Made by a program: the position numbers and the translations under genes. A stretch of DNA of 17,533 nt, taken from the NCBI GenBank assembly GCA_016208205.1, contig JACQYP010000138.1:1-17533 (forward strand), written 5' to 3'. The notes beneath the pieces are model-generated. The model made no database searches. It was not told where the DNA came from and was given only the letters and a program-made list of their open reading frames with translations. The stretch comes from Candidatus Desantisiibacteriota bacterium (GTDB taxonomy: Bacteria; UBA9089; CG2-30-40-21). Of the stretch, positions 4,968 through 17,533 are shown piece by piece; position 1 is the first letter of the stretch, and every line of letters begins with the position of its first letter.

Positions 4968-5001
4968 ACGCTTACCAAAATTAGAATTGCAATCTATGTA
5001 A

Positions 5002-5031
5002 CTGCTCAAAATCCAGCGGAGGTTTGAGCAG
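5002..5031. repeat. 9-bp stem-loop after neuB
   Basis: CTGCTCAAA (5002-5010) and TTTGAGCAG (5023-5031) are perfect arms around a 12-nt loop, 34 nt past the neuB stop. There is no T-run, so it is not a standard intrinsic terminator. The left flank TAACTGCTCA recurs right after the purB stop (8182) and, with one change, after fliK (14709), so it probably belongs to a repeat family. Confidence 0.55.
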
Positions 5032-5033
5032 AA

Positions 5034-5315
5034 ATGTAAAATGGAGACTGTAAATCTTAAAATGTGAAATGAGGAGAAGAATCGCTTGCCACAGGTAACA
5101 TGTTGGGCTTAAGGTAACCGTTCACGGTTGTCGGTTCTGAACTGACACCATATATTGCTGTCATTCCTGTGCATCACTGTCATTCCTGCCCCGTATCAAG
5201 TACGGGGCAGGAATGACAATGTCTTCTGTTCTTTTGTATCTATCCACTGTGAACGGTTACGGCTTAAGGAACTCATTTATTTTTCATTTTATATTTCCCA
5301 TTTTACAGTTTACAT
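5034..5315. repeat. Nested inverted repeat with 7-bp-period outer arms
   Basis: Three shells are visible between the convergent genes neuB and the PBP gene. Outer left (5034-5075): six 7-bp units of the ATGTAAA type. Outer right (5281-5315): five units of the same type on the minus strand. Middle: GTAACCGTTCAC (5114-5125) and its exact complement (5249-5260), each flanked by CTTAAG. Core: an 18-bp perfect stem, TGTCATTCCTGCCCCGTA (5178-5195) with its complement (5201-5218), around TCAAG. A partial direct copy of the core arm (11 bp) is at 5159-5169. There is no coding gene in 4968-5347. The core could end transcription from both sides, though no T-run is seen. Confidence 0.75.
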
Positions 5316-5347
5316 TGAATCCCACATGATTTTGAGTAATTACCAAT

Positions 5348-6670
5348 CTACGACTCAACATCCCTTACATGTTGTTTGTTGACCATATGCAGGGTAGATT
5401 TTTTATCTTTACCCTCAAAATATGCCTCTAAGAGTTTTCTAGTGACAGTACATGCCTTTACTCGCCAGGTATCATAATTAACAATTAACACTGCTATGGC
5501 TATTTCTGGATTATCTGCCGGAGCAAACCCTACAAACCATGTACAGTTTTTAGGTTGGCTCTTGCACGAAAGCGAGCCTGTTTTGCCGGCTATCTTAATC
5601 CCCTGGAGATAAGGATTCCCACGCCTATCATAAAACGCCTTATGGGCATTCCCTTCACCATGAACCGTTTGTATCATCATCGTCTTGATTATTTCTGCAG
5701 TTTCCGGTGTAATTGGTGTTCTCATTACCTGAGGGCTGGGTGTTACAAGAACCCTTCCCTCTGCATCCACAATTTGTTTAATAAGGGTTGGCTCCATTAT
5801 CTGCCCTTTATTAGCAATAGATGCAGCAAGCAATGCCCCATGAAGAGGGCTCATGTTTATATCTCCAAATCCGGCCCCTGATGCAGCAATATCATATGTT
5901 TCATCAGAAATATTAGCTGTTGATTCTTCTACGGGTATGTCGGGACACAGCTTAGAATTAAACCCAAACCTTTCGGCATATTTTTCTAAACAAGGGTATC
6001 CTACATCTATTGCCATGGTCGCAAAGGCTGTATTACAGGATTTAGCTAAGGCATTTCCCACACTAATTGGACCTGTTGGGACATTGGATGAATCCTGTAT
6101 CCATTTACCGTCATATTTAAGCCTTTTTGCAGCCTTCAGAATGTCATCAGGATGGATGGTTTCCCGTTCAAGGGCAGCTGACAGGGTTACAAGCTTAAAT
6201 ATAGAAGCAGCCGGATATGAAGATGAAAGGGCTAAGGGAAGCCGATGATTAAGGGGATTATCTCCCTGACTTGCCATAGCCAGGATTGCACCTGTGGAAG
6301 GATCCAGAGCAACAACTGCCCCAACCGGTATTCTATATTGTTGAAAGAGATTAACCGCAGCATCTTGAAGGAAGGGCAGGAGGGTAGATATTGCCCTTTT
6401 TCTATTGCCGATATTCATGGTGTATTCATTTTCTGATGTTTGCTTAAAGGAAGCAAGGGAAACAGTCATCCCACGCATATGCGATCCGACGATCTTCTTG
6501 CTTAAAGATGCTGAAGCAATACTGATATAGGTATAACAATACGAAATGCAAAAAACAATCAAAAGAGATGTCAAAACAATACAGCATGGCTTGTTCCATT
6601 CTTTTTTCCAGAACAAACCTTTCCCTTTGCGTTTTTTTACATACCTTTTCTGGCATTTTTTCCATCCCAT
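5348..6670 (-). CDS. Short class B penicillin-binding protein (transpeptidase)
   Basis: The protein would cross-link peptidoglycan in the periplasm. After a very basic N-terminus (1-27) there is one membrane anchor (about 30-52), then a short linker and a transpeptidase domain from about residue 105. The active-site motifs are complete: SIFK (nucleophile S156, K159), SCN (211-213) and KTG (363-365), with WFVGFAP following. At 440 aa it is short for the PbpA/FtsI class and lacks most of the usual N-terminal dimerisation module. I chose the ATG at 6670: GGGGGGG lies 7 nt upstream, while the longer ORF from 6739 would translate through the promoter. No rodA/ftsW or mreB gene is adjacent. Division or elongation role is undecided. 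Confidence 0.88.
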   Translation of the reverse strand: MGWKKCQKRYVKKRKGKGLFWKKEWNKPCCIVLTSLLIVFCISYCYTYISIASASLSKKIVGSHMRGMTVSLASFKQTSENEYTMNIGNRKRAISTLLPFLQDAAVNLFQQYRIPVGAVVALDPSTGAILAMASQGDNPLNHRLPLALSSSYPAASIFKLVTLSAALERETIHPDDILKAAKRLKYDGKWIQDSSNVPTGPISVGNALAKSCNTAFATMAIDVGYPCLEKYAERFGFNSKLCPDIPVEESTANISDETYDIAASGAGFGDINMSPLHGALLAASIANKGQIMEPTLIKQIVDAEGRVLVTPSPQVMRTPITPETAEIIKTMMIQTVHGEGNAHKAFYDRRGNPYLQGIKIAGKTGSLSCKSQPKNCTWFVGFAPADNPEIAIAVLIVNYDTWRVKACTVTRKLLEAYFEGKDKKSTLHMVNKQHVRDVES

Positions 6671-6707
6671 CAAAAGTCCCCCCCTTTTATCTAATGGAAT
6701 ATTATTA

Positions 6708-6736
6708 ATTATAGCAAAATAATCTTGTCTTGTCAA
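6708..6736 (-). promoter_or_regulatory. Near-consensus sigma-70 promoter for the PBP gene
   Basis: On the minus strand a perfect TTGACA (6736-6731), a 17-nt spacer and a perfect TATAAT (6713-6708) are present, and TGC before the -10 makes it extended as well. The leader to the ATG at 6670 is about 30 nt. It is the strongest promoter in the window and lies back to back with the purB promoter. Confidence 0.85.
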
Positions 6737-6747
6737 CAAAATTTATC

Positions 6748-6776
6748 TTGACAAATAGTCATTCGTCCAGTAAACT
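6748..6776 (+). promoter_or_regulatory. Predicted sigma-70 promoter for purB
   Basis: A perfect TTGACA (6748-6753), 17 nt, then TAAACT (6771-6776, 4 of 6 matches). Transcription would start near 6783, inside the first units of the heptamer array, so nearly all of the array would be in the purB leader. Confidence 0.6.
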
Positions 6777-6780
6777 TTGT

Positions 6781-6863
<83 letters not shown>

Positions 6864-6888
6864 AAATTTAGCAAGGAGGACAAAAACA

Positions 6889-8184
6889 TTGATTCAAAGA
6901 TACACGCGGCCTGAAATGGGCAACATATGGACAGATGAGTATAAATTCAGAAAATTGCTTGAGATAGAGATATTGGCATGTGAGGCTCAATCTGCCCTTG
7001 GCAATGTCCCAAAGCATAGTCTTGAGGTGATAAAGAAAAAGGCAAATTTTGATGTTCCAGGGATTTATGAGATAGAAGAGACCATCCAGCATGATGTTAT
7101 CGCCTTTCTCACCAATGTGGCCGGATATGTCGGTGAGGAATCAAGATATATTCATTTAGGACTAACATCCTATGATGTGGTTGACACCTGTCTTTCAGTC
7201 AGAATGCGTGATGCAGGCAGAATGATTGTTAATGATTTGAAAAGATTGGCTGAGGTGTTGAAAAAACAGGCACATAAATATCAGCATACTATTATGATTG
7301 GAAGAACCCATGGCATTCATGCTGAGCCAATGACCTTTGGCTTAAAGATGGCTTTATGGTATTTTGAAACCCTGCGAAACATTCATCGAATGGAAGAGGC
7401 AGTAACCGTTATCAGTGTTGGCAAACTCTCTGGTGCGGTTGGCACCTATTCTCAAATAGATCCCTTTGTTGAAGAATATGTCTGCCAAAAATTAGGGCTT
7501 AGCTGTGCTGAGGTAGCAACTCAGGTATTACAAAGAGATAGACATGCCCAATATTTATCTACGCTGGGTGTTATTGCCAGCTCTTTAGAAAAGTTTGCCA
7601 CAGAGATAAGAAACCTTCAACGAACAGACATGGGAGAGGTTGAAGAGCCATTCGGTAAGGGACAGAAGGGTTCCTCTGCCATGCCGCACAAACGAAATCC
7701 GGTTGTAGCCGAAAGAATATCCGGTCTGGCAAGGATTGTCCGGACAAATGCCATAGCTGCTATGGAAAATGTTGCCCTCTGGCATGAACGCGATATTGCT
7801 CACTCGTCCGTAGAAAGGGTTATAATCCCGGACAGTACTATTCTGATAGACTATATGTTGAGTAAATTCATATGGATTGCTGAAAATATAGTTGTCCGTG
7901 AAGACAGGATGAAAGAGAATATAGACCGTACCAAAGGATTGATTCATTCTCAAAGCTTGTTATTGGCTCTGACCCAGAAGGGTGTGCTTCGAGAGGATGC
8001 CTATCATCTGGTTCAGAGAAATGCTATGCGAGTCATAGATGAAGGCAGTGCCTCTATAGGGTTTAAGGAATTGGTACTTCTTGATCAGGATATAAGAAGC
8101 TGCCTCAGCCTTCAGGAAATAAATGATTGCTTTGATCTGAATAAGTATTTGAAGAATATAGATGTTATATTTAAGAGATTGTAA
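6889..8184 (+). CDS. purB: Adenylosuccinate lyase
   Basis: PurB splits fumarate from SAICAR and from adenylosuccinate, so it acts twice in purine synthesis. The 431-aa length is typical. The fumarase/aspartase-superfamily signature GSSAMPHKRNP (261-271) carries the catalytic serine loop (S262/S263). TSYDVVDT (93-100) and GRTHGIHAEP (138-147, H141) are the other active-site blocks. The start is TTG at 6889: AAGGAGG (6873-6879) is 9 nt upstream and MIQRYTRPEMGNIWTDEYK matches the usual N-terminus. A TTG start and a repeat-rich leader suggest restrained or tunable translation, which is inference. No other purine genes are in the window. Confidence 0.97.
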   Translation: MIQRYTRPEMGNIWTDEYKFRKLLEIEILACEAQSALGNVPKHSLEVIKKKANFDVPGIYEIEETIQHDVIAFLTNVAGYVGEESRYIHLGLTSYDVVDTCLSVRMRDAGRMIVNDLKRLAEVLKKQAHKYQHTIMIGRTHGIHAEPMTFGLKMALWYFETLRNIHRMEEAVTVISVGKLSGAVGTYSQIDPFVEEYVCQKLGLSCAEVATQVLQRDRHAQYLSTLGVIASSLEKFATEIRNLQRTDMGEVEEPFGKGQKGSSAMPHKRNPVVAERISGLARIVRTNAIAAMENVALWHERDIAHSSVERVIIPDSTILIDYMLSKFIWIAENIVVREDRMKENIDRTKGLIHSQSLLLALTQKGVLREDAYHLVQRNAMRVIDEGSASIGFKELVLLDQDIRSCLSLQEINDCFDLNKYLKNIDVIFKRL

Positions 8185-8191
8185 CTGCTCA

Positions 8192-8246
8192 GGTTCATGG
8201 TTCACGGTTGATGGCTTGCTCTCCTCTGAACCTTGAATCTCTGAAC
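8192..8246. repeat. Inverted heptamer repeat after purB (GGTTCAC type), copy A
   Basis: Forward 7-bp units of GGTTCAT/GGTTCAC/GGTTGAT type start at 8192, 8199 and 8206. Inverted units (GGTTCAG, GATTCAA, GTTCAGA on the minus strand) occupy 8226-8246. Positions 8199-8223 match 14764-14740 on the opposite strand at 24 of 25 bases, so this and the repeat before queC are one family. The element starts 8 nt past the purB stop. Confidence 0.75.
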
Positions 8247-8282
8247 ATGGTACAAAAAGAAAACATAGGGAGGAAAAAAGTA

Positions 8283-8687
8283 ATGAAGCCATCACAGAAA
8301 CAGTCTGATCATCAGGCAGAAATAAGAGAGGAATTGCGAAGCGACAATTTAGAACTGCTACGGTCCGAGATAACGGGAAAGGAGATACTTCTCAAAACAA
8401 ACACCCACTTTGACCGAAAGGAAAGAAAATATTTTGTCGAAGAGGTAAAGGATGAATACATTAAGGAGGCAGGGAAGCTTATCCGGGGTGTTCGGCTTGT
8501 AAACCATAAATTCCCAAAGGAAGAGCAGCCTCTTTTGAAATATCCTTCGGAATATATTGAAAAAACCATAGAGAACAACAAAAACAAGTTGGTTCTGCAG
8601 TATACATCTGAGGTAAATATTGGAAGAGACTTCAAGAGGCTTTATCGCGATACGATACAAGATTTGGAGATATATCTTTATTATTAA
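8283..8687 (+). CDS. Hypothetical charged soluble protein (134 aa)
   Basis: I do not recognise this protein. It is rich in Lys, Glu and Arg, has no signal peptide, no membrane segment and no cysteine, and looks largely helical (EIREELRSDNLELLRSEI, later KDEYIKEAGKLIRGVRL). I chose the ATG at 8283 because GGGAGG lies 9 nt upstream. An in-frame ATG at 8208 would add 25 residues encoded by the copy A repeat and has no ribosome site. It ends 17 nt before the DJ-1 gene and is probably cotranscribed with it. It may form a structural or nucleic-acid-associated small protein; this cannot be judged from sequence alone. Confidence 0.65.
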   Translation: MKPSQKQSDHQAEIREELRSDNLELLRSEITGKEILLKTNTHFDRKERKYFVEEVKDEYIKEAGKLIRGVRLVNHKFPKEEQPLLKYPSEYIEKTIENNKNKLVLQYTSEVNIGRDFKRLYRDTIQDLEIYLYY

Positions 8688-8704
8688 GGAGTCGTATTGT
8701 TAAA

Positions 8705-9328
8705 ATGAAGATTATTCGGTTATTTTTAATAGCAGTATGCAGCAGCATAGTAATTAGTTGTGTGTGTAGCAAAACATGTTATCAAGAGGGTAAAAAAATG
8801 GAGAGTATTATGGGTAAAAAGGTATTGTTTGTTATTGCTTCTAATAATTTTCGGGATGAAGAGTTTTTTGAGCCAAAACAGGTTGTTGAAACAAGGGGTG
8901 GTGTGGTGACCATTGCATCTTCTTCTCTGAATATTTCTAAGGGTGTGCGTGGAGCAGCAGTCAAGCCTGACATCCTTCTCAATAAAGCAAAAGCAGCAGA
9001 TTATGATGCTATTGTTTTTGTTGGTGGTGCAGGTTCCTCAGAATATTGGAATGACCCTGCAGCACATCAATTAGCAAAAGAAACCGCTGCCCTGGGCAAG
9101 GTTGTAGGTGCTATCTGTATTGCCCCGGTAACCTTGGCCAATGCCGGGCTTCTTAATGGGAAAAAGGCAACAGTATTTCCTTCTGAGATAGAAAGACTTA
9201 AGGCCAAAGGTGCTGTATATACCGGTGCTGGAGTAGAAATTGACGGTAAGATAATTACAGGTAATGGTCCACAATCTGCGACCTTGTTTGGTGAGGCAAT
9301 TGTAGCTGCCTTGCAGGAGAAAAGATAA
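8705..9328 (+). CDS. DJ-1/PfpI-family protein with lipoprotein signal
   Basis: From residue 37 the protein is a DJ-1/PfpI-fold domain (glutamine-amidotransferase-like): KKVLFVIASNNFRDEEFFEP, DAIVFVGGAGS (101-111) and the nucleophile elbow VGAICIAP with C138. The His next to Cys seen in PfpI proteases is Ile here, so protease activity is unlikely; glyoxalase/deglycase-like or redox-sensing roles are known in the family. Residues 1-19 form a lipoprotein signal with lipobox VISC (C19), predicting a membrane-anchored form. The ATG at 8705 has its AAGGAG 13 nt away, which is too far for efficient use. An in-frame ATG at 8798 has AGAGGG 7 nt upstream and gives a 176-aa cytosolic form of normal family length. 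Both forms may be made. Confidence 0.85.
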   Translation: MKIIRLFLIAVCSSIVISCVCSKTCYQEGKKMESIMGKKVLFVIASNNFRDEEFFEPKQVVETRGGVVTIASSSLNISKGVRGAAVKPDILLNKAKAADYDAIVFVGGAGSSEYWNDPAAHQLAKETAALGKVVGAICIAPVTLANAGLLNGKKATVFPSEIERLKAKGAVYTGAGVEIDGKIITGNGPQSATLFGEAIVAALQEKR

Positions 9329-9374
9329 CGGCAGGATAAATTGCCGAATCAAGAATGAACAAGGAGAAGTAAAT

Positions 9375-10391
9375 ATGCCGGAAACCTTGCTAAGGGTTAA
9401 GGGATTAAAGACTCAGATTCATACCCCTGAAGGGGTTGTCAGGGCTGTAGATGGTGTGGATTTTGAGGTAAATAAGGGAGAGATTGTAGGTATTATTGGA
9501 GAGAGTGGTTGTGGAAAGTCTATGACAGCCTTATCCATCCTTCAATTACTTCCTCCTCAGGCAAAAATAGAGGGCGAGATACTGTATCAGGGAAACGACC
9601 TGCTGAAATACAACACTTCCCAGATGCGGGAAATTCGAGGGAAAGGAATATCCATGATATTTCAGGATCCGGTTACATCCCTGAACCCTGTTTTTACTGT
9701 AGGCAATCAAATCTGCGAAGCAATTACCCTTCATCAAAAGATAAGCCAGAGGGCAGCAGTTGAAAAAGCCATTGAAATATTAAGATTATGCGGATTGCCG
9801 TCCCCTGAAGAACAATTCAAGAGATACCCCCATCAATTAAGCGGAGGTATGAATCAACGAGTTATGATTGCCATGTCTCTTGTTACCCATCCAGAGCTTC
9901 TTATTGCTGATGAACCAACTACTGCCCTGGATGTAACCATCCAGGCACAGATATTGGATTTAATAAAGAGCCTTCAATCTAAATTAAACATGGCTGTCTT
10001 GCTTATTACCCATGATTTGAGCATCATCTCTGCTATTACCAAAAGGGTTATTATTATGTATGCAGGTAAGATTGTGGAATATGCCGGAACAAATCTGATA
10101 TTTACTGCTGCTAAAGATATTGCATCTGCTAATCTTCACCCCTATACCAGAGGATTGATAAATTCTGTGCCAAACATAGATTTCATGGAAGATGAGATAT
10201 CGCCCCTGATACCTGCCTCAAAACGACTCAATACTATCCCGGGTGTTGTTCCAAACCCCATGGATATTCCGCCTGGATGCAGATTTCATCCAAGATGTCC
10301 TGTTGCTGTCCCAAGATGCAGAGAGGTTGAGCCGGAGATTCGCTTGTGCGGGGAAGAACATGGGATACGATGCTTTGAGGTAGAAGATTAA
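9375..10391 (+). CDS. Oligopeptide/dipeptide ABC transporter ATP-binding protein (OppD/DppD type)
   Basis: This cytoplasmic ATPase would power a peptide or nickel importer. Walker A GESGCGKS (42-49), Q-loop Q97, signature LSGGMNQR (155-162), Walker B LLIADEP (175-181) and H-loop H213 are intact. The C-terminal oligopeptide-type extension HPYTRGL (255-261) to [14 protein letters not shown] (302-315) is specific to the OppD/DppD class. Between residues 238 and 254 there are roughly ten more residues than usual before HPYTR. The 338-aa length is normal. AAGGAG is 8 nt from the ATG. No permease, binding protein or OppF partner lies in the window, so it is an orphan here and its substrate is unknown. 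Confidence 0.93.
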
Positions 10392-10401
10392 CCATACTAT
10401 A

Positions 10402-10500
10402 GCCACAGAGAACGCAAAGAACACAGAGATTTTTATCAAGATACCTCTGATTTTTCTCTGTGCCCTCTGTGTCTTCTGTGTCTTCTGTGACCTCTGTGGC
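10402..10500. repeat. Inverted repeat built from 9-bp units (CTCTGTGNC type)
   Basis: Three 9-bp units (GCCACAGAG type, 10402-10428) face five inverted units (CTCTGTGCC type, 10456-10500) across a 27-nt spacer. The outermost units GCCACAGAG and CTCTGTGGC are exact complements. It fills the gap between the ABC ATPase and gspF and would sit in the gspF leader if the genes are cotranscribed. Confidence 0.85.
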
Positions 10501-10532
10501 AAAAATCTTCCCGAGAGAAGAGGTGCAAGAAT

Positions 10533-11720
10533 ATGCCTACATTTATCTATAAAGCAGCCGACAAAGACGGCACCATCCACGAAGGAATTACCCAGAGAGA
10601 AACAGAGGCATCCGTTGTAGAATACATCAGACAAAAAGAGCTTTGTCCAATAAAGATAATGCCTAAAAAGAATCCTGTCCTTTTCAGGCTCAAGAGAAAA
10701 GAGGCGGGACAGATTATTGAGCAGCTTTCTAATCTCATTTGTGCAGGAATTACTATTGATAAGGGGTTAGACATCCTTGTCCGGGTTACAGAAAACAAAC
10801 AAAGAAAAGAACTCCTTTTGCAAATAAAAGAAGATATTCAAAAAGGCAATAGCCTTTCTACTGCCCTGTCTGCCTACCCGCATCTTTTTTCAAATCTTGA
10901 GATAGTTATGATCCGTATTGGAGAAACAAGCGGCACCATGAATTTGGCTTTAGAAAGAACACATGAGCTTTTTAAGAAACAAGAGGCTTTAAGTCTTAAA
11001 ATAGTATCCATGTTAATCTACCCCTTTTTGATGATTGCTGTTGGAGTAGTAGTAGTTACAACTGTTTTGGTCTTTGTTATTCCAAGGTTTGTCTCTATCT
11101 TTCAACAGATGGGGGAAACACTTCCTGTTCCAACCCAAATATTATTGTGGATAAGTCACATAATGAGTAACTATTGGTGGTTATTTGCCTGTCTTCTTGT
11201 CAGTGGAATTATTGGATACAGGTTTGCCCTGAAAACAAAAACCGGTGCAGCGATATTTGATTGGTGTGTTTTAGCAATTCCATGGATTGGATTCTTAGTA
11301 AAACTCCTCTGTGCAGCAAGATTTTGCAGAAGCATGGCCACCCTTTTAGATGGAGGGATACCTGTTATTGATGCGGTCAGGATTGCTAAGGATAGTATTA
11401 ATAATAGTATTGTAACCAAACGGATAATGATCGTTCAAAACAGGATAAAAGAAGGGTCGGAAATCTCGATACCACTTCGAGAAGCGAGGGTTTTTCCAGA
11501 GCTGATGATTCAGATGGTTGCCTGTGGAGAGGAAATGGGCAACCTGAAACAAATGCTGACGAATGTATCCGATACCTATGATATTACCTTGCAGAATCAA
11601 ATACTTAGAATCGTTTCCTTCTTAGAGCCAATTATGATACTAATAATGGGGCTAATCGTTGCAGGAATAGTATCCGCCATTCTTTTGCCAATATTTGGTA
11701 TGAGCCAGTTGCCGATATAG
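10533..11720 (+). CDS. Type II secretion / type IV pilus inner-membrane platform protein (GspF/PilC family)
   Basis: GspF/PilC proteins form the inner-membrane platform that connects the assembly ATPase to pseudopilus or pilus growth. The 395-aa product has two T2SSF domains (about 58-180 and 262-385) in tandem. The first contains EQLSNLICAGITIDKGLDIL, the second RSMATLLDGGIPVIDAVRIA. Membrane segments are at about 163-186, 214-232 and 360-388, ending in the typical EPIMILIMGLIVAGIVSAILLPIF. MVACGEEMGNL (328-338) is a family hallmark. The MPTFIYKAADKDGTIHEG start is also standard. AGAGG is 9 nt from the ATG. No GspE, pilin or secretin gene is adjacent, so whether it serves secretion or a pilus is open. 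Confidence 0.93.
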   Translation: MPTFIYKAADKDGTIHEGITQRETEASVVEYIRQKELCPIKIMPKKNPVLFRLKRKEAGQIIEQLSNLICAGITIDKGLDILVRVTENKQRKELLLQIKEDIQKGNSLSTALSAYPHLFSNLEIVMIRIGETSGTMNLALERTHELFKKQEALSLKIVSMLIYPFLMIAVGVVVVTTVLVFVIPRFVSIFQQMGETLPVPTQILLWISHIMSNYWWLFACLLVSGIIGYRFALKTKTGAAIFDWCVLAIPWIGFLVKLLCAARFCRSMATLLDGGIPVIDAVRIAKDSINNSIVTKRIMIVQNRIKEGSEISIPLREARVFPELMIQMVACGEEMGNLKQMLTNVSDTYDITLQNQILRIVSFLEPIMILIMGLIVAGIVSAILLPIFGMSQLPI

Positions 11721-11757
11721 TAGTACATTTTTTATTTGCAATATACCTTAATTTTTC

Positions 11758-11786
11758 TTGAATAATTTCTAAAAAAAGAGTATAAT
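11758..11786 (+). promoter_or_regulatory. Predicted sigma-70 promoter for the NIF3-family gene
   Basis: TTGAAT (11758-11763, 4 of 6 matches), a 17-nt AT-rich spacer and a perfect TATAAT (11781-11786). The leader to the ATG at 11874 is about 80 nt and holds a 5-bp stem (TCCTG/CAGGA) near 11816-11829. Confidence 0.75.
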
Positions 11787-11873
11787 ATATTGTAAGCGTT
11801 CAGTTGTCGAATATCTCCTGCTGACAGGAAGTGGAATGAAGCTGAAGACTTATTAAATAAAAGGAGGCTGTTT

Positions 11874-12830
11874 ATGTTGACTGTTGGTGAATTGTACAGA
11901 TTAGGGGTTGAGCATGGAATAAAGGCTGACCCGAGAGGAGAAGGAGAGATACGGGATGGGTTGAAACGGGTAGAACAAGAATATAATGAGATGAAGGAAG
12001 AAGAAAAGGCGGAGTTTGACATTGAAAGATTGACCAACCCATACAGGGATACACGAATACTCTATGGTGAAACAGATAGAACAGTAAAATGTGCGATTGT
12101 AGGGGTTGATATGGAAATAGGGGAAGTCTTGCTTGCAGAACGGCTTATCTCTCGAGGACAAAAGATTGATATTATTATTGCTCATCATCCAGAGGGATCT
12201 GCCCTTGCCGGATTCTATGATGTAATGCATCTGCAGGCTGATTTCTTGAACAAGCAAGGAGTGCCGATTAATGTAGCTGAAGGGATATTAAAGGAAAGGA
12301 TTTCAGAGGTGGAAAGAAGGGTGCTTCCTATAAATCATCAAAGAGCTGTGGATGCAGCAAGGTTGTTTGATATTCCGTTTATGTGTCTTCATACACCCTG
12401 TGATAATATGGTTACTGATTTTCTTCAAAAGAGGATAGATGAGGATGCACCTCGCATCCTGAAGGATATAATTAAACTCTTAAAGGATATACCTGAATAC
12501 AAACAAGGATTTCAGCAAGGAGCTGGACCAAAGATTATTGCAGGCTCTCAGGATAATCGGGCAGGGAAAATAATTGTCGAGATGACCGGCGGAACTGAAG
12601 GTTCAAAAAAGGCTATGGAAGCGTTTTCCAAGGCAGGTGTAGGTACGATTATCGGTATGCATTTTTCAGATGACCTGCGAAAAGAGGCGGAAAAGAATCA
12701 TGTTAATCTTATAGTTGCCGGGCATATCCCTTCAGATAATATTGGATTGAATCTGATGATAGATGCATTAAGAACAGAACATGAATTGGATATTATAGAG
12801 TGTTCAGGGTTTAAGAGAATGGAGAGGTAA
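11874..12830 (+). CDS. NIF3-family dinuclear metal protein (long variant)
   Basis: NIF3/YbgI proteins are ring-forming proteins with a two-metal site; some are called GTP cyclohydrolase 1 type 2, but the cellular role is not settled. The metal motifs are IIAHHPEG (H104, H105), CLHTPCDN (H173, D177) and GHIPSDN (H284, D288). The protein differs from the short form by an N-terminal region of about 70 residues rich in Glu and Lys (REYN-like helix, then RLTNPYRDTRILYG) and by a C-terminal MTGGTEGSKKAMEAF block. It appears to be a full-length member of the 310-330-aa variant. AAGGAGG is 6 nt from the ATG, and the gene has its own promoter. Confidence 0.82.
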   Translation: MLTVGELYRLGVEHGIKADPRGEGEIRDGLKRVEQEYNEMKEEEKAEFDIERLTNPYRDTRILYGETDRTVKCAIVGVDMEIGEVLLAERLISRGQKIDIIIAHHPEGSALAGFYDVMHLQADFLNKQGVPINVAEGILKERISEVERRVLPINHQRAVDAARLFDIPFMCLHTPCDNMVTDFLQKRIDEDAPRILKDIIKLLKDIPEYKQGFQQGAGPKIIAGSQDNRAGKIIVEMTGGTEGSKKAMEAFSKAGVGTIIGMHFSDDLRKEAEKNHVNLIVAGHIPSDNIGLNLMIDALRTEHELDIIECSGFKRMER

Positions 12831-12880
12831 TTGTTTTTCCATAATTAAAATTACTGAGAAACTAATCAGACTATTAGACG

Positions 12881-12917
12881 ATAAGAGACTGCTCGACTGC
12901 TGATCACTGACAACTGC
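12881..12917. repeat. Degenerate heptamer block before fliK
   Basis: Within the 140-nt spacer after the NIF3 gene, positions 12886-12913 read as four loose 7-bp units of the GACTGCT/TGATCAC/TGACAAC type. On the minus strand they resemble the GTCAGCA units found in fliK. No promoter for fliK was recognised in this spacer. Confidence 0.4.
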
Positions 12918-12970
12918 CGGAGATGCTACATCTTGAATACTTGCAGATTTGTGTCAGAACAGGGAGAATT

Positions 12971-14689
12971 ATGAATATAGAAAGTGTCTTTTCGTCAAAA
13001 TTAAATATCTGGAAATTGCTTGACTCCCATGATGTGTCAAACCGCAATCAAAGGCAATTGCCAGGGGTGTTACCCCTGCCAGAGGTGCTACCCCTTTCCA
13101 AAAATTTATACTTTAAGAATATTCTCATCCAAATTATGAATGAGATGGCGATGAGACAGTCATCCAGTAACTTGTATCAATGGTCAATGGTCAGTGGTCA
13201 GCAGTCAGGTGAGGCTATGCCTGCAAAGGTCGATCAATCGGTAGTCAGCAGTCTGCAGTCAGCAGTCAGCAGTGTTGAAGCTATGCCTGCAGCGGTTGAT
13301 CAATCAGTAGTCCGCAGTCAGCAGCCGGCAGTTAGCAGTGTTGAAGCTATGCCTGCAGCGGTTGATCAATCAGTAGTCCGCAGTCAGCAGCCGGCAGTTA
13401 GCAGTGTTGAGGCTATGCCTGCAGCGGTCGATCAATCGGTAGTCCGCAGTCAGCAGCCGGCAGTAGGCAGTGTTGAGTCCATGCCTGCAGCGGTCGATCA
13501 ATTGATAGTCAGCAGTGTTGAAGTTATGCCTGCAGCGGTCGATCAATCGATAATCAGCAGTCAGCAGTCTGCAGTCAGCAGCGTTGATGCTCTGCTTGCA
13601 GCGGTCGATCAATCAGTAGTCAGCAATCCGCAGCCGACAGTCAGCAGTGTTGAGGCTATGCCTGCAGCGGTCGATCAATTGATAGTCAGCAGTCAGCAGT
13701 CAGCAGTCAGCAGTGTTGAAGTTATGCCTGCAGCGGTCGATCAATCGATAATCAGCAGTCAGCAGTCAGCAGTCAGCAGCGTTGATGCTCTGCTTGCAGC
13801 GGTCGATCAATTGATAGTCAGCAGTCAGCAGTCAGCAGTCAGCAGTGTTGAGGTCATGCCTGCAGCGGTCGATCAATCGATAATCAGCAGTCAGCAGTCT
13901 GCAGTCAGCAGTGTTGAGGCTATGCCTGCAGCGGTCGATCAATCGGTAATCAGCAGCCAGCAGCCGGTAGTCAGCAGCGTTGATGCCAAACCAACAACAG
14001 TGGCTCAAGCTCAGTTGGACGTGATTAATCCAGCAGTAGTTGTTAATTCCGGTTTCACAGCAGCAAGTCAGTCCAAGCTGGATACAATAGACCCAACCAG
14101 CATGAATCAAGACATGGAAATAATGAATAAAATTAAGGAAGGGATAGAAAGAATATTGCTTAAGCATAGTAATAGCATAAATATGGGTATGGAAAATGAG
14201 CAGTCAAAAACACCGTTTAACACCCATGAGGAGACTTTAACGAAAGAGACATCTCCCACGACATCGTGGCAAGATCATTCTGATTTAGCGAAAGAAATAA
14301 TCAACAGATTGGTCCAGGAAATAAAAATTAATCTTAAAGATGAAATTACTCAAATGCATATCCAATTAAAACCTGAACATTTAGGGGAATTAGAGTTTAT
14401 ACTTTCCATGGAAGATGAAAAATTAACCGCTACATTTTTGGTTCAGGATGACCATGTTAAAGAATTAATTGAATCTAATCTGAAGATATTAAGAAATGCC
14501 ATAGAATTGTCAGAAATAAATGTAGGTTTGATTAATGTTTTTGTCAGGGATGAACATTTAGGAAATAGACAAAAGCGGGAAGATGCATTGTCTTTTGGTT
14601 TCCGTGGTTTGAAGGAAAAGAAACAGCAAACAAATACAGATGATACTTCCATGTTATGGAGGAGAAATACAATCAATCTTGTGGCGTGA
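12971..14689 (+). CDS. fliK: Flagellar hook-length control protein FliK with a large internal repeat
   Basis: FliK is exported through the flagellar type III apparatus, measures hook length and switches export from hook to filament subunits. The C-terminal Flg_hook domain lies at about 440-525, with the core ITQMHIQLKPEHLGELEF (LKPEHLGE 466-473) followed by VQDDHVKELIESNLKILRNAI and a final VGLINVFVRDEH. I chose the ATG at 12971 (572 aa), with AGGGAG 4 nt upstream; the ATG at 12923 has its GGAG directly abutting. Residues 80-336 are 12 tandem units of about 22 residues, consensus VEAMPAAVDQSVVSSQQSAV plus SS. The size is large for FliK because of this array. Other flagellar genes are not in the window. 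The array replaces the Pro/Thr-rich ruler region usual in the family. Confidence 0.88.
   Translation: MNIESVFSSKLNIWKLLDSHDVSNRNQRQLPGVLPLPEVLPLSKNLYFKNILIQIMNEMAMRQSSSNLYQWSMVSGQQSGEAMPAKVDQSVVSSLQSAVSSVEAMPAAVDQSVVRSQQPAVSSVEAMPAAVDQSVVRSQQPAVSSVEAMPAAVDQSVVRSQQPAVGSVESMPAAVDQLIVSSVEVMPAAVDQSIISSQQSAVSSVDALLAAVDQSVVSNPQPTVSSVEAMPAAVDQLIVSSQQSAVSSVEVMPAAVDQSIISSQQSAVSSVDALLAAVDQLIVSSQQSAVSSVEVMPAAVDQSIISSQQSAVSSVEAMPAAVDQSVISSQQPVVSSVDAKPTTVAQAQLDVINPAVVVNSGFTAASQSKLDTIDPTSMNQDMEIMNKIKEGIERILLKHSNSINMGMENEQSKTPFNTHEETLTKETSPTTSWQDHSDLAKEIINRLVQEIKINLKDEITQMHIQLKPEHLGELEFILSMEDEKLTATFLVQDDHVKELIESNLKILRNAIELSEINVGLINVFVRDEHLGNRQKREDALSFGFRGLKEKKQQTNTDDTSMLWRRNTINLVA
13176..13210 (+). repeat. 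Pure heptamer run at the edge of the fliK array
   Basis: Five 7-bp units starting at 13176, 13183, 13190, 13197 and 13204 follow GTCARNR: ATCAATG and GTCAATG grade into GTCAGCA. They encode QWSMVSGQQSG and abut the first 66-bp unit, as if a simple heptamer run seeded the larger array. Confidence 0.75.
13208..13978 (+). repeat. 66-bp tandem repeat in fliK (12 units, one shortened by 21 bp)
   Basis: The 771 bp divide into 11 units of 66 bp and one of 45 bp, exactly 257 codons. Each full unit has a stretch of (GTCAGCA)n-like heptamers, about 28 bp (for example units starting at 13244, 13251, 13258 and 13265), and about 38 bp of unique sequence encoding the VEAMPAAVDQ part. The short unit (residues VESMPAAVDQLIVSS) lacks exactly three heptamers, which keeps the frame. 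Units 6-7 and 9-10 share a VEVMP then VDALL order, so blocks of two or three units have been duplicated. A degenerate 13th unit follows. Confidence 0.92.
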
Positions 14690-14718
14690 TTATTTGTAAA
14701 TATTCAGGTAACTACTCA

Positions 14719-14777
14719 GGTTCACGGTTCAAGGGTTAAGAGAGCAAACCATCAACCGTGAACCTTGAACCGTGAAC
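14719..14777. repeat. Inverted heptamer repeat before queC (GGTTCAC type), copy B
   Basis: GTTCACGGTTCAAGG (14720-14734) pairs exactly with its complement at 14763-14777, a 15-bp stem. Both arms are 7-bp units (GGTTCAC, GGTTCAA). Positions 14764-14740 on the minus strand match copy A (8199-8223) at 24 of 25 bases. It lies between fliK and queC, 18 nt before the queC ATG. Confidence 0.85.
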
Positions 14778-14795
14778 TAGTTTAGAAGGACTAAA

Positions 14796-15503
14796 ATGCT
14801 TAAAAAATCATCCATATGCTTGCTTTCTGGTGGGCTTGATTCCATAGTAGCTGCTACTATGGCTACCCAAAAAACAACAGTATTGTTGGGTATTACATTT
14901 GATTATGGACAGAGGGCAAGAAAACAAGAGATAAAGTCAGCAGGCAGGGTGTGTGAATATTTGGGGATTCTGCATCGAGTAATTACACTGGATTGGATGG
15001 GACAGACAAGCAGTGCCATCCTTCAAGGGGCAAGAGATATTCCTGTGTTCAACTTTGAAAAAAGCAACCCAATCCAAACAGCTGAGGCTGTCTGGGTGCC
15101 CAATCGTAACGGTGTTTTTATCAATATTGCTGCCTCATTGGCAGAGGAAATGGACGCAAGTTTGATTATATCCGGGTTCAATAAAGAGGAGGCAGAAACC
15201 TTTCCGGATAACAGCGAAGAGTTTGTTCAGGCTGTTAATCAATCGCTGTCACTGTCTACCTTGCGTAAGGTTCAGGTAATGAGTTTTACTCAAGGGATGA
15301 ATAAAAAGGAAATAGTAGCATTAGGAAAACAAATATCTGCCCCTTTTCATCTTTTATGGAGCTGTTATCTGGGGTATGACAAGATGTGCGGCAAATGTGA
15401 AAGCTGTCAAAGGTGTATTCGGGCGTTTAAGTTAGCAGGAGCTTTTGAAATAATACAAGGGAGGTTTGAGGATGAATCACAAGTTTATTCAGAAAAGGAT
15501 TGA
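14796..15503 (+). CDS. queC: 7-cyano-7-deazaguanine (preQ0) synthase
   Basis: QueC converts 7-carboxy-7-deazaguanine to preQ0 using ATP and ammonia, on the route to queuosine in tRNA or to other deazaguanine bases. The PP-loop SGGLDS (11-16) binds ATP. FDYGQRARKQE (35-45), VPNRNGVFINIA (101-112) and SGFNKEEAETFPDNS (126-140) are standard substrate-region blocks. The zinc site is complete: C190, C198, C201 and C204 in WSCYLGYDKMCGKCESCQRC. The 235-aa length is normal. GAAGG is 6 nt before the ATG. The gene overlaps the DUF366 gene by 32 nt. QueD, QueE and QueF are not in the window, so the end product is unknown. Confidence 0.95.
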   Translation: MLKKSSICLLSGGLDSIVAATMATQKTTVLLGITFDYGQRARKQEIKSAGRVCEYLGILHRVITLDWMGQTSSAILQGARDIPVFNFEKSNPIQTAEAVWVPNRNGVFINIAASLAEEMDASLIISGFNKEEAETFPDNSEEFVQAVNQSLSLSTLRKVQVMSFTQGMNKKEIVALGKQISAPFHLLWSCYLGYDKMCGKCESCQRCIRAFKLAGAFEIIQGRFEDESQVYSEKD

Positions 15504-16062
15504 TTATACAGGGGCACAGCTTCGGTCTCATTGGATATATGAAAACTTTGAACTGCCCGGTAGTGCGATTGTTGTGTTTCGTGGGGCAGCAGATGTGGAT
15601 AAGCATTTAGTGGATATGGTGGATTCTCAGAAAAAGGAGTATATTTATAGCGAGGATATGCTGCATTTTATCGTTGAACATTTTTCACTTGATCTGGAAA
15701 GAACCATTGCCTATCAAAGATTATTAATAGCCATCATGGGTGAAGCTATTAATTCTTATTATCTTTCCGCTATGGGAGAAGAACAGGGCAGGAGATGTCA
15801 GATTAAACGGTATGGAGATGACCTTTATGATGGAGGAGATAAGCTTACAGTCTCTATTGCTACCCTGACTACTGTCTCAACCATGATTCACGCTGGGATA
15901 AATATCTCGTCCAAGGGTACACCTGTTCCAACCAAAGGGCTGCTGGATTATGGAATGTCGGAAACAGATATTTCAGCCTTTGCTGAAGCAGTATGTTCCA
16001 GCTACACAGAGGAGATAAAAAGTATTCGTATGGCACGATGTAAGGTAAGAGGGGTAAGGTAG
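15472..16062 (+). CDS. DUF366-family protein
   Basis: The 196-aa product matches what I know of the DUF366 family: DYTGAQLRSHWIYENFELPGSAIVVFRG at the start, then MLHFIVEHF, DLERTIAYQRLL, GDDLYDGGDKLTVSIAT, and SSKGTPVPTKGLLDYG. The family's function is unknown to me. It starts inside queC (32-nt overlap), with GGGAGG 7 nt before the ATG at 15472, so the two are almost certainly translated from one mRNA. This suggests a link to 7-deazaguanine metabolism. The TTG at 15466 is a poorer start. Conserved His, Asp and Arg clusters (HWIYE, HFIVEHF, GDDLYD) hint at an enzyme or nucleotide-binding protein, which is inference. Confidence 0.8.
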   Translation: MNHKFIQKRIDYTGAQLRSHWIYENFELPGSAIVVFRGAADVDKHLVDMVDSQKKEYIYSEDMLHFIVEHFSLDLERTIAYQRLLIAIMGEAINSYYLSAMGEEQGRRCQIKRYGDDLYDGGDKLTVSIATLTTVSTMIHAGINISSKGTPVPTKGLLDYGMSETDISAFAEAVCSSYTEEIKSIRMARCKVRGVR

Positions 16063-16119
16063 ATCAGAGATTTTTTACCACTGTGGTGATTACACAACAA
16101 AAGCGATCAGGAGTATTAC

Positions 16120-17533
16120 ATGTCCAGAAAAAAAAAGCAACACATAGCAAAACAAAAGGTCTTACAGTCTCAAGCCTCAAAGCTTAAGTCTCAAACCTCA
16201 CCAATATCATGGGGCTTAAGCCTGATTGGAATTGGGGAGGCTACTGTAGAGACAAGCAGATTTGGGATATTTGAGTATGGCTGTGGGATTTTTGTTTTTC
16301 TTGCGGCACTATTTACCTATCTTATTACCCTTACCCCGGATATTGGCTTTCATGACTGTGGCGATATGGTGCCGGCGGTTGTGAAGCTTGGGGTATGCCA
16401 TCCACCGGGGTATCCATTCTTCTGTCTGCTTGGCAAGCTATTCATAAGCCTTGTTCCAATAGGTAATATTGCTTATCGAATGAACTTCGCTTCCAGCCTC
16501 TTTGCCTCAACCGCAGTAATGATGGTTTATTTTATAGTGGTAAGGCTGGGACAATCCATTATCCCCAGCAGCCGTATCAGCTATATTATTTCCGGTATAG
16601 TCTCTGCAAGTATGCTTGCTTTTGCCACTACATTTTGGGAACAGGCGGTTATTGCAGAAAAATACAGCTTAAATGTCTTGTTTGCCAGCCTTTTGCTCTT
16701 TATCCTTGTCAGGTGGCAGGGCACGACAAAAATAAATTCCTCATTACCCTATGTATTTGCCATGACCCTTGGATTGGCGTTTACCCATCACCTTCAGACC
16801 ATATACATTGTGCCGGCAAGTATCTACTTTATTATGGTTATCTTATGGAATAAAAAACAACAGCCATTGCCCCTGCGGTTGATTCTTACCATGCTGCTTT
16901 GCTTTATTATCCCATTATCCCTGTACTTGTATCTACCCTTGCGAGCCATGTCTCATCCGCCGCTGAATTGGGGTGACCCGCAGACATTGCCGCGATTTAT
17001 GGATTATATTACTATTCAGGCATACAAGCATTTTATTATCAGCTCACCTGTAACCTGGCTGAAAAATGCATGGACACACATAACAACATTTTTCCCAAAT
17101 CAATTTACATGGTGGATAATGTGGCTGTCCATTGTTGGGCTTGTTTTTCTAATAAAATACCGTCGGGCTATTTCTCTGCTGCTCTGTCTGGTTGTCCTGA
17201 CCAATATTGCTGCTGCTGTCCGATATGGTATCTCAAACATTCAGGACTATTACCTTACCTCGTTTATGGTCTTTGCTATTTTTATCGGCTGTGGTCTTCT
17301 TGGGATAGTGAAACTTGGCGTCAATAGAGGACTTTCCCCTGCTATTGCCGTTATCTTTCTTGCTCTGCCTATAATTACATTTCGTGTCCATTATAATCAA
17401 TGTCAACATCGAAGCTATTATTTTCCTACAGACATTGCCAGAAATCTGCTCTCGTCCCTTGAGCCAAATTCAGTTATTCTCATCAAAGGGGATGTGAACG
17501 GATTCCCTGTCTGGTATCAGAGATATGTAGAGA
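16120..17533 (+). CDS. DUF2723-family multi-pass membrane protein (3' end off the window)
   Basis: 471 complete codons are visible and the gene continues past the right edge. After a basic, polar N-terminus (1-52) come many membrane helices. The DUF2723 core is clear: LTPDIGFHDCGDMVPAVVKL (71-90), HPPGYPFFCLLGKLF (94-108), NIAYRMNFASSLFAS, FWEQAVIAEKYSLNVLF (172-188), and later LPLRAMSHPPLNWGDP. Members are GT-C-fold, PMT-like glycosyltransferases (TMEM260 relatives) that act on the outer face of the membrane with lipid-linked sugars. Donor and acceptor here are unknown; envelope glycosylation is likely. CAGGAG is 6 nt before the ATG. Residues 14-27 are encoded by a heptamer array. Confidence 0.88.
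   Translation, partial: MSRKKKQHIAKQKVLQSQASKLKSQTSPISWGLSLIGIGEATVETSRFGIFEYGCGIFVFLAALFTYLITLTPDIGFHDCGDMVPAVVKLGVCHPPGYPFFCLLGKLFISLVPIGNIAYRMNFASSLFASTAVMMVYFIVVRLGQSIIPSSRISYIISGIVSASMLAFATTFWEQAVIAEKYSLNVLFASLLLFILVRWQGTTKINSSLPYVFAMTLGLAFTHHLQTIYIVPASIYFIMVILWNKKQQPLPLRLILTMLLCFIIPLSLYLYLPLRAMSHPPLNWGDPQTLPRFMDYITIQAYKHFIISSPVTWLKNAWTHITTFFPNQFTWWIMWLSIVGLVFLIKYRRAISLLLCLVVLTNIAAAVRYGISNIQDYYLTSFMVFAIFIGCGLLGIVKLGVNRGLSPAIAVIFLALPIITFRVHYNQCQHRSYYFPTDIARNLLSSLEPNSVILIKGDVNGFPVWYQRYVE
16159..16200 (+). repeat. Six degenerate heptamers (AGTCTCA type) inside the DUF2723 gene
   Basis: 7-bp units begin at 16159, 16166, 16173, 16180, 16187 and 16194. AGTCTCA occurs twice exactly (16166, 16187); the others are AGCCTCA, AACCTCA, AAGCTTA and GTCTTAC. 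The 42 bp encode VLQSQASKLKSQTS (residues 14-27), a polar stretch before the first membrane helix. Confidence 0.75.

Follow-up and report, generated by a model that had tools for sequence, protein, structure and literature searches.

Seven-base repeat arrays in a Candidatus Desantisiibacteriota contig and their proposed kinship with the inverted arms around PF05635 genes

The window, a stretch of 17,533 nucleotides from contig JACQYP010000138.1 of Candidatus Desantisiibacteriota bacterium, carries tandem arrays of 7-bp units between its genes and within open reading frames (ORFs). An earlier note made from the letters of this DNA alone, called here the sequence-only reading, had described them as one system of unrelated units with a strict 7-bp period. 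The gene set looks ordinary and comprises delta-aminolevulinic acid dehydratase, dapB, an L-PSP family gene, a NeuB-family gene, a penicillin-binding transpeptidase, purB, DJ-1/PfpI, an ABC transporter ATPase, type II secretion F, a fliK-like gene, queC, DUF366, and a TMEM260-like gene. The host is a relative of Candidatus Desantisbacteria: the PurB of the window is 94% identical to that of the metagenome-assembled genome Yes70-11 (G001), 94% identical to that of Modern_marine.mb.176 (G002), and 87% identical to that of CG2_30_40_21 (G003). The repeat sites, labelled A to G, are as follows.

4998..5343: outer element of site A, an IS66-type miniature inverted-repeat element with ends GTAACTGCTCAAAATC and GATTTTGAGTAATTAC and ATGTAAA-type 7-bp arms within
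5034..5075, + strand: left arm of site A, ATGTAAA type, weak when taken singly
5281..5315, - strand: right-hand arm of site A, with inverted ATGTAAA-type units
5114..5260: inner, nested element of site A, with ends GTAACCGTTCAC and its inverse, and a perfect 8-bp duplication GGCTTAAG at 5106-5113 and 5261-5268
6781..6863: site B, before purB, 7.9 perfect TCAGGAG units against an inverted arm of TCAGGGR-type units
8181..8252: site C, between purB and the next gene, GGTTCAC/GGTTCAT units against weak inverted units, with left end GTAACTGCTCA
10402..10500: site D, a hairpin of 9-bp units of the CTCTGTGTC type, absent from the sequence-only reading
13166..13986, + strand: site E, GTCAGCA 7-bp runs within a 66-bp repeat, in the open frame of the fliK-like gene (12923-14689, PF02120)
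14708..14777: site F, between the fliK-like gene and queC, left end GTAACTACTCA and GGTTCAC-type inverted arms with a 16-pair stem
16159..16200, + strand: site G, AGTCTCA-type units at the start of the TMEM260-like membrane protein gene (frame from 16120)

Period and folding of the arrays

At each site, lags of 3 to 12 were compared over 21 bases and set against 1000 dinucleotide shuffles of the stretch. Every site listed in the sequence-only reading has its best match at lag 7, and the reading is thereby confirmed in its claim of 7-bp repeats at several places. The matches at lag 7, followed by the number of shuffles out of 1000 that reach them at lag 7 and at any lag, are 13/21 (12 at lag 8), 13 and 128 for 5034-5075; 15/21, 5 and 51 for 5281-5315; 21/21, 0 and 0 for 6781-6863; 14/21, 5 and 23 for 8192-8246; 21/21, 0 and 1 for 13176-13978; 17/21, 0 and 1 for 14719-14777; and 14/21, 3 and 17 for 16159-16200. 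Tandem heptamers are beyond chance at sites B, E, and F, where no shuffle reaches the observed value at lag 7. The two site A stretches are unconvincing singly and are backed by forming the two arms of one inverted repeat.

A scan of the whole window for segments with at least 20/28 matches gave 13 segments at period 7, one at period 9, and nine at period 14, a multiple of 7. It gave none at periods 3-6, 8, 10-13, and 15, and three shuffles gave none at any period. As ten of the 13 period-7 segments belong to one coding array (13166-13921), only four separate loci pass this threshold, namely the right arm of site A and sites B, E, and F; the left arm of site A and sites C and G fall below it. 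The units of the window sites are unrelated in sequence and have the period in common, as had been claimed.

The strictness of the period, in contrast, was wrong, so that the earlier observation is partly confirmed. A 9-bp array with hairpin arms at 10446-10506 (site D, 19/21 at lag 9) had been overlooked, an 18-bp repeat lies at 13055-13097, and two of the sampled relatives are richer in other repeats, G003 in 8-bp and G001 in 9-bp ones. Counts for the relatives refer to sampled contigs (40 contigs and 244 kb in G002, 40 and 315 kb in G001, 20 and 180 kb in G003), in which the segments at periods 6/7/8/9 number 1/45/13/9 in G002, 0/15/6/19 in G001, and 1/7/17/4 in G003. An excess of period 7 over 6, 8, and 9 is therefore present in the window and in the G002 sample and absent from the G001 and G003 samples. 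The window and G002 favour period 7, and in relatives periods 8 and 9 are real alternatives. A genome-specific period (8 in G003, 9 in G001) was considered and set aside, as one GTTGATAG-like family accounts for 15 of the 17 period-8 segments of G003 and 14 of the 19 period-9 segments of G001 lie inside ORFs. The greedy ORF calls used here and for the PF05635 controls given below are not a gene annotation. The 18-bp repeat (TGCCAGAGGTGCTACCCC) belongs to the fliK-like coding region; short matches to it recur in the three relatives, and G002 has copies where the coding region of the site G gene begins.

The non-coding arrays are mostly arms of hairpins. Compared with shuffles, the predicted folds exhibit z-scores of -8.4 for site A, -6.2 for site D, and -4.4 for site F, and site B gives a regular stem in which each unit contains one mismatch (-44.7 kcal/mol, z -5.4). 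The inverted-arm layout attributed to four non-coding sites thus holds for A, B, and F and is weak at C (z -1.85). Among 93 intergenic segments of period 7-9 from the window and the relatives, 52 have an inverted partner (16/20 matches, within 400 bp).

Turnover in relatives and the IS66-type ends

The arrays come and go at equivalent sites of the relatives. The array of site B, 5' of purB, is absent from all three, although purB is conserved, and G002 carries an unrelated short hairpin there. On the 3' side of purB, another hairpin is present in G001 and none in G002 or G003. The interval between neuB and the transpeptidase gene of G001 is an empty site, with a single CAATCTAC, no site A-type element, and a short unrelated hairpin instead; that of G003 contains an element with GTAACTACTCA ends and different arms (the G002 interval was not recovered). 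Beyond the 3' end of the fliK-like gene, where the comparison is with G003 alone since G001 and G002 were not recovered, G003 exhibits an element with the same ends as site F, other arms, and a 7/8 target duplication. Other inserts occupy the position of site D in G001 and G003.

Unit numbers also differ. Counted by eye, site G has five units in the window, two in G001, two and two to three around another insert in G002, and none in G003. One miniature element of G003 with 8-bp arm units occurs in four near-identical copies, the left arm of which varies in whole units (30 bases at L101:7349, 46 at L102:7786, and 38 at both L095:24 and L110:73). The check suggested by the sequence-only reading, whether presence and unit number vary among relatives, hence has a positive outcome, on both sides of purB and at site G.

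Site B starts 4 bases past a sigma-70-like promoter match (6748-6776) and precedes purB. This position would suit arrays that bind a post-transcriptional regulator in 5' leaders, a role suggested for the TAACTGA repeats of Beggiatoaceae. These are comparable heptamers, which, in the available portion of PMC4679880, are described as mostly intergenic and mostly directly before start codons; they differ from the arrays reported here in having a single unit sequence and, in the same portion, one inverted set among 170. The loss of the site B array next to a conserved purB, the presence of arrays inside and after genes, and the differences between unit sequences make such a regulatory function most improbable.

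IS66 ends begin with GTAA, and IS66 duplicates 8 bp of its target. At site A, one IS66-type miniature element is nested inside another, and both are flanked by 8-bp target duplications. The outer ends form an inverted repeat of 16 nt (88% complementary), and the 7-bp arms one of 32 nt (72% complementary). The outer flanks, CAATCTAT at 4990-4997 and CAATCTAC at 5344-5351, are alike at 7/8 positions, which corresponds to a target duplication. This outer end pair was found by eye; the list of end pairs keeps just the nearest right end per left end. The inner element also contains a near-perfect 21-bp hairpin at 5175-5221 (TGTCATTCCTGCCCCGTA). With its GTAAC ends, its 8-bp duplications, and its lack of a transposase, site A resembles the miniature inverted-repeat transposable elements (MITEs) of the IS66 family, and an IS66 gene with similar ends is present in a relative.

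Ends of the GTAACYRYTCA type are common to the window and the relatives, with 223 copies of GTAACYRYTCAGG in G002, 140 in G003, 9 in G001, and 0 in the backward control. The 8-bp flanks of 48 end pairs are identical in 11 cases and agree in at least 6/8 positions in 12, compared with 1.1 expected, and contig C86 of G002 has an IS66 transposase gene (PF03050) flanked by a pair of these ends. All arrays could accordingly be subterminal repeats of IS66-type miniature elements mobilised by IS66 transposases, and a general IS66/MITE cause was tried first. It was dropped, as arrays of G002 (12/50 versus 96/400) and G001 (0/18 versus 30/400) have such ends nearby no more often than random intergenic points do, and enrichment near arrays is observed in G003 only (14/21 versus 38/400 random points). 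In addition, the flanks of the G002 IS66 copy agree in 3/8 positions only, and no array was seen beside its ends on reading. Both layers of site A exhibit a pair of ends, sites C and F a left end only, and site B none, so that target duplication is scorable at none of these last three sites. The IS66-type layer is thus no general account of the arrays; as an explanation for all of them it is contradicted and improbable, and it is still valid for site A. Nor do the arrays form the single system that had been proposed: they are a heterogeneous set that comprises IS66-type miniature elements, hairpins lacking ends of this type, and expansions in coding DNA.

PF05635 genes between inverted arms

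A hairpin of G002 encloses, between its arms, a 120-aa ORF that matches the 23S rRNA intervening-sequence protein family (PF05635, S23/IVP). The sole PDB match of this ORF is 2rld, an entry with five chain copies. According to the part of PMC4990558 available, a pentamer structure has been solved for PF05635 proteins and no function is known for them; the rRNA intervening sequences are there described as hairpins with a PF05635 gene in the loop, with a transposition relic or mobile element among the hypotheses on their nature.

Matches to the family occur in 16 of 19 host-phylum genomes and in 12 of 16 genomes from elsewhere; another 20 genomes, of Bacilli and Prochlorococcus, gave none, which does not prove absence there. 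The matches listed number 126 in the host phylum and 70 in the other genomes. Loci were taken for the best 67 of these 196, and 59 of the 67 could be tested, two lacking a tblastn match and six having too little flank. Some PF05635 bounds are badly placed (for example in L224), and individual loci may be misjudged.

Inverted arms with at least 17/20 matches across the gene occur at 45 of the 59 PF05635 loci. In the controls, they flank 1 of 83 further ORFs from these loci and 7 of 165 small ORFs from the sampled contigs. With at least 16/20 matches, the numbers are 47/59, 6/83, and 10/165. ParE genes of the phylum exhibit no inverted arms (0/20). The layout is found in 22 of 31 loci of the host phylum and in 23 of 28 from cyanobacteria, Bacteroidota, Kapabacteria, and FCPU426 together. 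Period 7 on both sides combined with inverted arms is observed in 28/59 PF05635 loci and in 3/83 and 1/165 of the two controls; other two-sided periods are scarce (period 8 in 2/59, period 9 in 2/59, period 6 in 1/59), and the remaining inverted loci have no clear two-sided periodicity at the threshold used. What marks out PF05635 is the inverted layout on both sides, as opposed to period 7 in itself.

The unit sequences of the arms differ between PF05635 loci. As the same layout recurs around these genes with different units at each locus, a common mechanism becomes likelier. The period is not fixed at 7, as 8 and 9 also occur, around PF05635 genes too. The interpretation given in the sequence-only reading is partly supported. 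In three loci, the order of variant units is identical in both arms without a mismatch, over 35 bp (L227), 34 bp (L283), and 25 bp (L229). The share of arm mismatches in one phase of 7 is 0.18, compared with 0.12 expected (15 loci), a weak difference. Rfam gave no rRNA match for any of the 59 loci, most of which span about 3 kb.

One place is seen in three states, with a PF05635 gene in AATTAAA arms in G002, a small gene-less hairpin in G001, and no insert in G003. Outside the AATTAAA element, 15 of 43 period-7 segments of G002 share a 14-mer with the PF05635 arms of the same genome, 12 of them with L227; seven random foreign arm sets share 2.1 on average. Counts of period-7 segments were also compared across genomes: in 12 PF05635-bearing genomes outside the phylum, the purB loci contain 43 such segments (non-zero in 9/12), compared with one in 465 kb of loci of 24 Bacilli/Prochlorococcus genomes without a PF05635 match and none in 51 kb of three host-phylum genomes without a match.

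Two further observations concern single loci. Inverted 9-bp ATGGACGGA arms lie near a sub-threshold PF05635 match at L228:1104-1370, which was left uncounted, as the gene was not placed by tblastn. A group II intron match lies in a PF05635 locus (L245:2032-2109), and another match on this contig (G004:C111) is to a reverse transcriptase.

Interpretation and known systems

We tentatively propose that the non-coding 7-bp arrays could well be the stems of hairpin-forming inserted elements, gene-less members of the class that bears PF05635. The hairpins, the vacant or altered sites in relatives, the duplications of site A, the whole-unit steps, and the inverted arrays around PF05635 genes outside rRNA are direct observations; the kinship of the window arrays with the PF05635 elements is proposed. 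Such a class would be widespread, its gene-bearing members holding an S23/23S rRNA intervening-sequence family protein in the loop, and the window arrays would be non-autonomous, with the PF05635 protein possibly acting on them in trans. Stem units would multiply by slippage in whole units of 7, less often 8 or 9 bp, and one arm may be copied onto the other, which would let the unit sequence drift while the period stays. Insertion would favour intergenic and 5' leader DNA, where RNase III could trim the stem from the transcript, so that little harm might result. Certain arrays would ride in, or nest with, IS66-type miniature elements moved by ordinary transposition, as at site A. The coding arrays of sites E and G may be the same kind of units expanded in open frames, with a presumed common origin.

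The main competitor is plain replication slippage, which would favour units of about 7 bp through the polymerase footprint, with template switching making the arms and PF05635 genes as passengers in slippage-prone intergenic DNA. Heptanucleotide repeats are the most abundant category in most genomes surveyed, and the footprint has been proposed as the cause (Mrazek 2007, as cited in the portions available of PMC4679880 and PMC4692102). The whole-unit steps between the G003 element copies and the occurrence of arrays in coding DNA fit this account, as does the frequency of period-7 runs on at least one side of neighbouring ORFs (42/83, compared with 45/59 for PF05635 and 17/165 for small ORFs). 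Slippage alone, in contrast, leaves unexplained the inverted arms around one gene family (45/59 versus 1/83), the near absence of arrays in the Bacilli/Prochlorococcus loci, and the prominence of periods 8 and 9 among close relatives. We regard it as a possible explanation, albeit a somewhat doubtful one. A more far-reaching suggestion, that PF05635 is the trans-acting factor of widespread hairpin mobile elements which copies or reads the stems in 7-base steps, and is the source, beyond polymerase slippage, of the heptamer excess in cyanobacteria, Desantisbacteria, and others, seems rather unlikely.

The one-sided runs at neighbouring ORFs also weigh against the proposed kinship with PF05635 elements, and they are joined by several other points. 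None of the 15 main ORFs of the window that were scanned matches PF05635, and with no such gene in the loops, the window arrays are classed as gene-less look-alikes and not as members. Of the window pieces, just one of the seven non-coding ones (site F) has a 12-mer in common with PF05635 arm sets, compared with two of the three coding ones. When the inverted-partner search was repeated on controls, the reversed control gave 2 and the complement control as many as 25, so that the excess (52/93) is real yet smaller than the reversed control suggests. Inverted arms with at least 17/20 matches are lacking in 14/59 PF05635 loci, and the full two-sided period-7 layout in 31/59. The genome with most PF05635 matches (G005, 34) has 2 period-7 segments in 100 kb, so copy number does not scale with the arrays, and the co-occurrence across genomes rests on few clades and is confounded by phylogeny. 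At least one of the random foreign arm sets also reached 15 segments with a shared 14-mer. The small gene-less hairpin of G001 folds weakly (z -1.3); another G001 stretch (L201) exhibited no structure (z 0.49). Finally, PF05635 resembles Avd of the diversity-generating retroelements, according to the available part of PMC10053308, and a reverse transcriptase was considered as its partner; this candidate was rejected, being present in 9/19 phylum genomes and out of step with PF05635.

The closest known system is the 23S rRNA intervening sequence of Coxiella and Leptospira, which likewise has a stem of terminal inverted repeats and a PF05635 gene in the loop. In Coxiella, tandem heptamers precede the S23 gene in strain-dependent number (PMC4990558, in the part available). 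The loci reported here differ in that the 59 loci have no rRNA match and many of their stems are tandem arrays of 7-9 bp, and the window arrays are gene-less. An Rfam scan of the window gave no match, hence no 23S rRNA location for its arrays.

The heptameric short tandemly repeated repetitive (STRR) sequences and long simple sequence repeats (LSSRs) of filamentous cyanobacteria and others share the period of 7 and the presence of several unit families. In the portions of PMC4679880 and PMC4692102 available, they are described as simple tandem repeats, inverted ones of Xanthomonas as possible stem-loops, and PF05635 is unmentioned. The sequence-only reading had seen a contrast with the cyanobacterial heptamers in inverted design and multiple families, which does not hold: the eight cyanobacterial loci (non-Prochlorococcus) contain 38 period-7 segments, compared with three of period 8 and two of period 9, with several unit families, at times within one array (units by eye), and the set in which 23/28 PF05635 genes have inverted arms includes cyanobacteria. 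In two cyanobacterial arrays (L019:11298-11417 and L023:9857-9970), the unit family changes mid-array by eye, with the 7-bp register kept.

Foldback elements of animals have long inverted ends built of short tandem repeats. Compared by description only, the elements reported here are unlike them in being bacterial, in their 7-9 bp units, and in their link to PF05635 instead of a transposase.

Among the titles and abstract openings listed by searches of a limited open-access collection, none concerned PF05635/S23 genes in heptamer hairpins outside rRNA. The location of PF05635 genes between inverted arms outside rRNA, in several bacterial groups, unites two questions, the heptamer excess, in print since 2007, and the function of PF05635, and both become testable in culturable cyanobacteria. 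It would suggest why S23 genes occur in rRNA, which would be just one of many places where a hairpin element can land, and the bracketing of this gene by such arms offers a first candidate, open to testing, for the origin of these repeats.

Two ORFs of the window have no Pfam match. One lies at 11874-12830. The other, at 8208-8687 (159 aa), adjoins purB and is kept in all three relatives.

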